Origin: an uncultured Rhodospirillaceae bacterium
GTDB lineage: Bacteria > Pseudomonadota > Alphaproteobacteria > UBA8366
Direction: 5' to 3'
DNA: 52,199 nt
Assembly (NCBI GenBank): GCA_913043025.1
Contig: CAJWLM010000020.1
Location: 1 to 52,199, forward strand
Below, in pieces: positions 37,118 through 39,242 of the stretch; positions within the stretch are counted from its first letter, which is position 1, and each line of letters starts with the position of its first letter. A program made the position numbers and the translations under genes. The notes under the pieces are model-generated. The model made no database searches and was not told where the DNA came from. It saw only the letters and a list, made by a program, of their open reading frames with translations.

Positions 37118-37813
37118 CTAATAACTTCTCATTAACCCAACAAGTTTGCCTTGGACCGTTACTCTATCCGGGCCAAAGATTCGAGTTTCGAATTCTTTAT
37201 TGGCTGGTTCCAATGCGATTGAGTCGCCTTTGCGCCTAAGTCGCTTCAGCGTGGCTTCACTTTCGTCAATAAGGGCAACTACTATATTCCCGCTCTCCGC
37301 GGTGTCGCAATACTCGATGATAACCGTATCACCATCAAAAATACCTGCCTCAATCATTGATTCTCCCTCAACTTCTAATGTGTAGTGCTTGCCAGAGGAT
37401 AGTATTGATGTCGGCACCCCAATCTGGGCAGTCTCGTCGCGAAGCGCTTCAATAGGTGTTCCGGCTGCAATCTTCCCATAGCAAGGTAAACTGATAGCGT
37501 CTGCCTCAATAACCGGCATTCCCGGACGCCCAAGGGGCTGATCATTACTAATTACAGTTGGGTTAAAACCTTTATGTTTTGGCTTTTCTCCGGGCACATT
37601 TTCAGGCAATCGAACGACTTCGAGCGCACGCGCCTTATGAGGTAAGCGGCGTATGAATCCACGTTCTTCTAAGCCAGTAACCAGGCGGTGTATCCCGGAT
37701 TTTGATTTTAGCTGTAATTTCTCTTTCATTTCGTCAAAAGAGGGCGGAATACCATCCTTGAGAAGACAATCTTGAATATACATCAACAAATCGTATTGTT
37801 TTCGAGTTAGCAT
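37118..37813 (-). CDS. lexA: LexA repressor
   Basis: Repressor of the SOS DNA-damage regulon, inactivated by RecA-stimulated self-cleavage. An N-terminal winged helix (about 1-65, [40 protein letters not shown]) binds DNA. The S24 peptidase domain shows the cleavage site A117-G118 in [10 protein letters not shown], the nucleophile S152 in [14 protein letters not shown] and the general base K190 in SEATLKRLR. Its 231 residues include a longer inter-domain linker, typical of alphaproteobacteria. A LexA box on its promoter indicates autoregulation. Confidence 0.98.
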
Positions 37814-37946
37814 TTCATAACACCCATCTAGTCAACCATATAAAAAATTAAACGGTTCTTGTATATGCGCCAGTAAAAATCTACTCCAACCAAGTATTCA
37901 CTTCGTCTTTACAGTTAAGCTCAACGCCGGCGCTGACAAAAAATAC

Positions 37947-37961
37947 GAACAAAACGGAAAC
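37947..37961 (-). promoter_or_regulatory. Second, degenerate LexA-box-like site
   Basis: GAACAAAACGGAAAC on the plus strand (GTTTCCGTTTTGTTC on the transcribed side) has the GAAC-N7-GAAC spacing with one base off in the second half-site. It lies just downstream of the predicted lexA start point, where a bound repressor could add to repression. This is a pattern match only. Confidence 0.4.
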
Positions 37962-37971
37962 TTACAGATAT

Positions 37972-37986
37972 GTTCTATTAAAGTTC
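37972..37986 (-). promoter_or_regulatory. LexA (SOS) box of lexA
   Basis: GTTCTATTAAAGTTC is an exact fit to GTTC-N7-GTTC, the direct-repeat SOS box known for alphaproteobacterial LexA. It covers the -10 hexamer and the adjacent part of the spacer of the predicted lexA promoter, so LexA bound here would block RNA polymerase. It lies 159 bp from the lexA start codon and 45 bp beyond the moeA stop. Confidence 0.85.
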
Positions 37987-38000
37987 GCGAATCGGGTCAA
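37972..38000 (-). promoter_or_regulatory. Sigma70 promoter of lexA
   Basis: Reading leftwards, TTGACC (37995-38000; five of six consensus bases) and TAGAAC (37972-37977; four of six) stand 17 bp apart. Start would be near 37965, leaving a leader of about 150 bases before lexA. One LexA half-site is the GAAC of the -10 box itself. It gives lexA its own transcript, separate from the trp-moa genes upstream. Confidence 0.7.
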
Positions 38001-38030
38001 GTAGAACTTTAAATTATAAATGAATTTTTT

Positions 38031-39242
38031 TTAAAATCCCGCTAGAATTGAAGGCATGCGAAGAATTTCTACGGAAGTTCCTGCGGATACACCGGGTGCC
38101 AACGGTTTGCGCACAATAAAGCAATCGGATCGTGCAAGTGACAACATCATAGAGCTATCTTGGATAGGAAATGGTGTTACTTCCATTACTCCATTTTTAT
38201 TTTTGTTTAGTCTACCACGGATATAGTCTTCCCTCTTGCCATTTTTGCGGAGAGCTTCAGTCACCTTAACAGTTTCAAGAGAACCGACAGAAGTTTGCAA
38301 GCCTAGTTGTGCTTCTATCGCTGGTTTGAGAAATATTAATGCGCAAACCATTGTCGAGACCGGGTTTCCTGGCAGTCCAAGCAGAGGTGTGCCGCTAAAG
38401 TTCCCAAATATAAGTGGTTTGCCAGGTCTCATAGCAATTTTCCAGAAGTCAACATCAAGTCCTATTCCGCCAAGAACCTCCTGAATGAGATCGTGATCTC
38501 CAACTGATGCCCCACCTGTAGTTACAAGCAGATCAATACCCTTGGCGCCTTCGGCTATGCGTGAGAGAGTTTCACGATTATCCGGTGCAATACCCAAAAG
38601 TACAGGATCGCCACCAAACGCACGAACTGCAGCGGCAAGGCCAGTTGAATTAGCGCTAACTATCTGATTTGGACCTAGTTTATCACCCGGCATCACTATC
38701 TCATCACCAGTCGATAATATGCCAACGCGCGGTCGTTGTCTGACCATAACCCACGGAATATTCATAGCTGCTATCAAACCGGCATCGCGAGCAGTAAGTA
38801 ATTTTCCAGGCTCTAGGAGTATATCACCTTCGCTGAAATCAAGGCCAGCAGATCGAATATGCCGTTCTGGTTCAATTCCCTTTATAATGACACTATCGTC
38901 TGCGGCCGTTGTGTCCTCTTGAATGACAATAGTGTCAGCGCCCATTGGAACTGGCGCGCCAGTAAAAATTCTTACCGCTTCGCCTGAGTTGAGAATTTCA
39001 GAGTAACTCCCGCCAGCATGTGCAGTGCCAACAACCTGTAGAGTAACAGGCACAGAGGAGATATCCCTCGCGCATACTGCGTAGCCATCCATCGCCGACA
39101 CATCAAACGGGGGCTGAGTTCTTCGCGATTTCAATTCTTCAGCAAGGACACGGCCGAATACATCACTCACGCTCACCTCTATCGAGGTCGTACGTTCCAT
39201 CGTTTTTGTAATTCTTGCTCTGGCATCAGCTACCGTTAACAT
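38031..39242 (-). CDS. moeA: Molybdopterin molybdenumtransferase MoeA
   Basis: Inserts molybdate into adenylylated molybdopterin to complete the molybdenum cofactor. The N-terminal part has RTQPPFDVSAMDGYAV; the central MoCF-like domain has VGILSTGDEIVMPGD, NSTGLAAAVRAFGGDP and TTGGASVGDHDLIQEVL; then MRPGKPLIFG, LLGLPGNPVSTMVCALIF and the C-terminal beta domain. Its 403 residues are normal. The start shares one base with the moaC stop (TAATG). It is the last gene of the trpG-trpD-trpC-moaC-moeA run. Confidence 0.97.
   Translation of the reverse strand: MLTVADARARITKTMERTTSIEVSVSDVFGRVLAEELKSRRTQPPFDVSAMDGYAVCARDISSVPVTLQVVGTAHAGGSYSEILNSGEAVRIFTGAPVPMGADTIVIQEDTTAADDSVIIKGIEPERHIRSAGLDFSEGDILLEPGKLLTARDAGLIAAMNIPWVMVRQRPRVGILSTGDEIVMPGDKLGPNQIVSANSTGLAAAVRAFGGDPVLLGIAPDNRETLSRIAEGAKGIDLLVTTGGASVGDHDLIQEVLGGIGLDVDFWKIAMRPGKPLIFGNFSGTPLLGLPGNPVSTMVCALIFLKPAIEAQLGLQTSVGSLETVKVTEALRKNGKREDYIRGRLNKNKNGVMEVTPFPIQDSSMMLSLARSDCFIVRKPLAPGVSAGTSVEILRMPSILAGF

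Follow-up and report, generated by a model that had tools for sequence, protein, structure and literature searches.

A lexA promoter overlapped by a LexA box and followed by a second, facing LexA-like box in an uncultured alphaproteobacterium and its relatives

The lexA gene of an uncultured Rhodospirillaceae bacterium is located on contig CAJWLM010000020.1 of assembly GCA_913043025.1, whose positions 1 to 52,199 were analyzed; this whole stretch of 52,199 nucleotides is referred to as the window. The encoded protein exhibits the Pfam domains LexA_DNA_bind and Peptidase_S24, both above the cut-off, and moeA is found upstream on the same strand. The features of the lexA region are the following:

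37118-37813, minus strand: lexA, 231 amino acids (open reading frame and Pfam).
37814-37965, minus strand: predicted 5' leader of lexA, about 150 nt, with a putative transcript start.
37947-37961, minus strand: box 2, a second LexA-like box GTTTCCGTTTTGTTC (GTTT-N7-GTTC), recovered by the two-box pattern, the box model and the facing-pair test.
37972-37977, minus strand: -10 hexamer TAGAAC, whose last four bases form the second half-site of box 1.
37972-37986, minus strand: box 1, an exact LexA box (GAAC-N7-GAAC), based on sequence and conservation.
37995-38000, minus strand: -35 hexamer TTGACC, read directly, with the TTGA spacing kept in relatives.
38031-39242, minus strand as lexA: moeA, the gene upstream of lexA (open reading frame and Pfam).

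The first-pass annotation had proposed a promoter TTGACC-N17-TAGAAC that reads leftwards into lexA, and this is correct to the base, with a spacer of 17 bp between the two hexamers (37994-37978). Box 1, which by direct reading is GTTCTATTAAAGTTC on the plus strand and GAACTTTAATAGAAC on the minus strand, is located about 160 bp upstream of the lexA ATG and covers part of this spacer together with the -10 hexamer. It is an exact GTTC-N7-GTTC direct repeat and thus an SOS box of the alphaproteobacterial type. The proposed overlay of an SOS box on the -10 element, with one half-site being the promoter box itself, was likewise confirmed, as TAGAAC closes the GAAC-N7-GAAC repeat and the arrangement is conserved in the order and beyond. 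The operator had been described as a single box, however, and while box 1 stands, the facing second box at 37947-37961 was overlooked. The box type agrees with the earlier taxonomic call, as it fits an alphaproteobacterium; the nearest named lexA is that of Rhodospirillaceae bacterium SP3966 (94% identity).

A sigma-70 promoter scan did not return TTGACC-N17-TAGAAC, because the scan requires a T at the last position of the -10 hexamer. According to the excerpted text of a study on alphaproteobacterial sigma-70 promoters, most of those analyzed lack a T at this position (-7; PMC8407463). A structured or known RNA leader of lexA was considered and dropped, based on the RNA fold z-score of the 5' leader (-0.38, no unusual folding) and the absence of any Rfam family at gathering threshold in 37600-38300. 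Positions 37978-38012 of the window, across the lexA promoter, contain a 9-bp inverted repeat, TTAAAGTTC...GAACTTTAA, but it is absent outside the genus (L034 and beyond) and was rejected as a functional element.

The bare GTTC-N7-GTTC pattern is not enriched and occurs at or below the level expected by chance. The window contains one match versus 1.36 expected, and the 3.08-Mb genome contains 56 versus about 80, when the expectation for the window is scaled up; the reversed-pattern control yielded 113 matches in the same genome. Motif frequency was accordingly discarded as a test of box 1, and the weight therefore rests on the position and the conservation of this box. Among the 56 exact genomic sites, 48 of the 55 outside lexA overlap open reading frames of at least 90 amino acids. 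Four of the seven remaining sites precede recA, imuA or nrdA (two of them at nrdA), and the other three are located before fliF, between a panE-like and a glyoxalase gene, and at a place with no open reading frame nearby.

Conservation of the promoter and box 1 was investigated in 59 lexA loci, comprising 30 from the order (including the window) and 29 further ones from the class, which were identified by protein similarity rather than by the motif and represent the lexA genes closest to that of the window. An exact box ending in TAGAAC is present in 51 of them, and all 51 exhibit a TTGA in front of it, at a distance of N17 in 47 and N18 in four cases. The overlap with the promoter and its maintenance in relatives place box 1 among the alphaproteobacterial LexA operators, and it is this conservation that marks it as a probably genuine site despite the chance-level motif count. 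Four loci from a single genus of the order (L055-L058) carry TTGACA-N17-TAGTCC instead and have lost the -10 half-site of box 1; other GTTC/GAAC elements are found upstream in these lexA promoters, and a facing box pair is absent there. Locus L053 contains an extra box upstream, the true promoter box being the next one. The lexA gene of L102, a metagenome assembly whose record is titled Rhizobium sp. Q54, has an operator of the window type and not of the rhizobial type, and this assembly is possibly mislabelled or mixed.

Box 2 is located 10 bp downstream of box 1, just past the predicted transcript start, in the opposite orientation, and it differs from the consensus by one base in its first half-site. 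A search for the strict two-box pattern GAAC-N7-GAAC-N(7-11)-GTT-N8-GTTC gave a single match in the genome under study and matches in 33 of the 43 genomes of the order, while the reversed control was absent from all 43; in the class the pattern was found in 145 of 385 genomes and the reversed pattern in 12. Its association with lexA is evident from the two-box loci examined, 30 per search: 27 of those from the order and 29 of those from the class lie at most 400 bp upstream of lexA; loci L183, L184, L201 and L217 do not lie upstream of this gene. lexA is present in 291 of the 385 class genomes. Among the class matches listed, 149 lexA places in 148 genomes comprise 103 with a listed two-box site upstream, and the other 46 divide into six with an exact two-box site, 14 with one mismatch, eight with two, 16 with a single exact box and two with none. 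For these 149 listed places the totals thus amount to 109 exact sites, 123 within one mismatch and 26 places without a pair at that tolerance; the two-mismatch class was left uncounted because the Markov control destroys box 1 and thereby flatters this class.

The resemblance of box 2 to a LexA site was recovered independently of lexA. A weight matrix trained on 55 boxes of recA, imuA and nrdA (22 distinct), with lexA excluded, ranks box 2, in facing orientation, first among the non-overlapping sites in 50 of the 51 lexA promoters, compared with an expectation of about 1.4% per locus. Box 2 even outscores box 1 in the window (16.6 versus 11.4 bits), which is partly due to the A-rich spacers of the training boxes. 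A uniform facing-pair test, which tolerated one mismatch in each box and required a gap of 6 to 12, detected the pair at 25 of the 30 lexA loci from the order, 28 of the 29 from the class and 76 of 80 named, mostly rhizobial, ones, i.e. at 129 of 139 in all, while the control pair in the same orientation was found at none of the 139. Most loci of the order and class sets have a gap of 9 or 10, and a gap of 11 was observed for 64 of the 76 named, mostly rhizobial, pairs. Gaps of 9 to 11 place the two boxes 24-26 bp apart from centre to centre, corresponding to 2.3-2.5 turns of DNA. By site resemblance, the lexA promoter thus carries two LexA-like sites and qualifies as a putative double operator.

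The two halves of box 2 are conserved to a different extent. In 53 pairs from protein-found loci the second half-site is always GTTC, whereas the first one is GTTT in 42, GTTG in nine and GTTC in two. The opposite is observed in the 76 named, mostly rhizobial, pairs, in which the first half-site is GTTC in 67 and the second one GTTT in 65. A single-box structure of rhizobial lexA had been considered and was overturned, as the second box is present there with the other half-site off consensus; the lexA operator of L105 (Ensifer) is of this rhizobial form. Either half of box 2 can accordingly be the weak one, but both are seldom perfect: this applies to two of the 53 protein-found pairs and not to the genome under study. 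We read this as selection that probably maintained box 2 as a weaker or spacing-dependent second site. The off-consensus trend may also reflect a bias of motif choice, since the test was capped at one mismatch per box.

The comparison with further SOS genes was informative about both the box and the pair. An absence of the same box from other SOS genes had been named in the first-pass annotation as evidence against the operator, but exact boxes are present before recA (C6:141995; TIGR02012 above cut-off), before a probable imuA (C4:180718) and, in two copies 64 bp apart, before nrdA (C1:66051-66065 and 66130-66144; L002, L003). The identification of imuA is based on an ImuA match below the curated cut-off (54.8 versus 150 bits) together with a gene for an IMS-domain protein 50-odd bases downstream. 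The expected occurrence of GTTC-N7-GTTC upstream of SOS genes therefore holds for recA and the probable imuA, but not for uvrA, where no box within one mismatch was detected in 600 bp of upstream sequence; at dinB no exact box was found, and the sole match, with one mismatch, is located immediately in front of the start of the domain. Exact boxes are also present in relatives, namely at 24 of 28 recA loci (one of them an unusual site), 18 of 22 imuA loci and 14 of 21 nrdA loci, and the distribution at nrdA suggests that ribonucleotide reductase belongs to the SOS genes of this group. The facing pair, in contrast, is absent from all 28 recA, 19 imuA and 21 nrdA loci of the order that were investigated, with one mismatch tolerated in each box.

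The recA promoters of the order provide a parallel. An exact box GAACAAAAAWAGAAC is present in 23 of 28 loci (L237-L264), and, as in the lexA pair, a second site follows 10 bp further on (GAAC-N7-GTAC, in all 20 loci with room for it). Unlike at lexA, the second box has the same orientation as the first one (25 of 28). The -10 element of recA probably falls on the last half-site of this second box, so that the promoter may account for part of the conservation of the box. No such promoter explanation offers itself for box 2 of lexA, which lies past the -10 element.

A further box, GTTCTNTAAATGTTC, was observed directly before a TATAAT and the start of a protein of about 90 amino acids with CxxC pairs (C16:32499-32513 in the genome under study; region 1469-1810 of L074; L390 and L391). 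Box and gene are present in all three genomes of the genus, and a search of 26 further genomes did not reveal the gene. It is a candidate for a genus-specific SOS gene.

The two boxes with their spacing, orientation, conservation and specificity for lexA are observed, and they make it highly likely that lexA has its own promoter with a facing two-box operator, through which LexA represses its own gene. LexA binding, the start site, the repression and the share of each box in it are predictions from the sequence. RNA polymerase would use TTGACC-N17-TAGAAC and start near 37965. LexA would bind box 1 across part of the spacer and the -10 hexamer and, in the opposite orientation, box 2 across about the first 4-19 transcribed bases, and the two dimers would block the lexA promoter. 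They would occupy roughly opposite faces of the DNA, because the centre-to-centre distance of 24-26 bp corresponds to 2.3-2.5 turns. Upon DNA damage, RecA would trigger the self-cleavage of LexA, which would thus leave the promoter; lexA would then be made again and the response would be shut off. Solved LexA structures match the protein of the window mostly over its C-terminal half, and apart from 3k2z, which is matched over two stretches, the best matches start no earlier than residue 98. The DNA-binding half is thus poorly matched, and the matches offer no close template for the reading of direct repeats by such a LexA. A more far-reaching conjecture, which we consider conceivable but rather doubtful, is an old operator code that is specific for lexA and consists of facing direct-repeat boxes about 2.3-2.5 turns apart with the second one a base off consensus. 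As recA shows the same spacing with the same orientation, the orientation and not the sequence of the boxes would set the response of the promoter, and LexA would act as a cooperating pair of dimers, unlike in E. coli.

The two-box operator can be questioned with regard to box 2. Box 1 might be the only LexA operator, with box 2 being a conserved, early-transcribed sequence, e.g. for start-site choice or promoter escape, that resembles a box. Its position downstream of the -10 element and its deviation from the consensus by one base are compatible with such a role, and excerpts of a study on E. coli report that the effect is negligible when one strong operator takes the place of the double operator (PMC7440846). 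However, box 2 resembles the boxes of unrelated SOS genes, being the best second site in 50 of 51 promoters, and a facing pair is missing at the recA, imuA and nrdA loci. Its half-sites moreover differ between the two lexA groups, with GTTT-N7-GTTC in 51 of 53 protein-found pairs (GTTG counted) and GTTC-N7-GTTT in 65 of 76 named ones, a pattern that is more readily explained by a LexA site than by an invariant start-site sequence. We therefore regard a purely transcriptional role of box 2 as unlikely. A chance match over an ordinary promoter, with lexA lacking autoregulation in this organism, would be in line with the frequency of GTTC-N7-GTTC at or below chance in window and genome, but it is extremely improbable in view of the conservation, the fixed geometry and the lexA specificity of promoter and boxes.

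A different question is whether the promoter is the main source of lexA transcripts. The first-pass annotation regarded lexA as uncoupled from the trp-moa genes upstream, which was not borne out: no terminator-like site was detected in 37700-38200, around the gap between moeA and lexA, and read-through from moeA into lexA is hence possible. The location of moeA upstream of lexA in 52 of the 59 loci is also in agreement with a transcription of lexA mainly from trp-moa-moeA, with its own promoter playing a minor role. The seven loci without moeA upstream nevertheless all keep the promoter and the two-box operator, which supports the view that the promoter serves lexA by itself, and the spacing between -35 and -10 is constrained to N17 or N18. 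Predominant read-through appears unlikely, and we retain an autoregulated lexA promoter with two facing boxes as the preferred reading.

It is textbook knowledge that lexA is autoregulated through a LexA box. The motif GTTC-N7-GTTC is given as SOS box for Alphaproteobacteria (PMC8565304, PMC3323433) and for Caulobacter (PMC12700426, PMC9578287) in the excerpts of these sources, and phylogenetic footprinting of alphaproteobacterial lexA promoters revealed AAC-N8-AAC in 24 of 26 cases (PMC2248561, excerpt with Table 5). The excerpts on the alphaproteobacterial SOS box describe one box, whereas lexA of the window exhibits a facing pair with a nearly fixed gap. Within the literature searched, which was represented by such excerpts, we found no description of a second, facing LexA box in front of lexA in Alphaproteobacteria, and an earlier one may exist, e.g. 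in classical studies of the recA and uvrA operators in Rhodobacter, Rhizobium and Paracoccus. Autoregulation via box 1 is hence of a known kind, and the facing pair across distant alphaproteobacterial groups is apparently new within this literature. This pair suggests that LexA occupancy at lexA and recA is underestimated when the search is restricted to single GTTC-N7-GTTC boxes.

A close known equivalent is the lexA promoter of E. coli, which, according to the excerpts, also has two LexA operators, while most SOS promoters have one (PMC7440846, PMC2994835). The boxes of E. coli are palindromes, whereas each box described here is a direct repeat and the boxes face each other; palindromic CTGT-N8-ACAG boxes are absent from lexA of the window, which carries GAAC/GTTC direct repeats. 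Its operator would therefore work like that of E. coli without being a member of the same type. No evidence for cooperativity was found for the E. coli double operator, and its role was called unclear by the authors in the excerpted text (PMC7440846). The present finding may be of importance because distant alphaproteobacterial groups maintain a facing, slightly weakened second box at lexA, using a box chemistry unlike that of E. coli, and a comparison of these two independently coded double operators could test the role of the one in E. coli.
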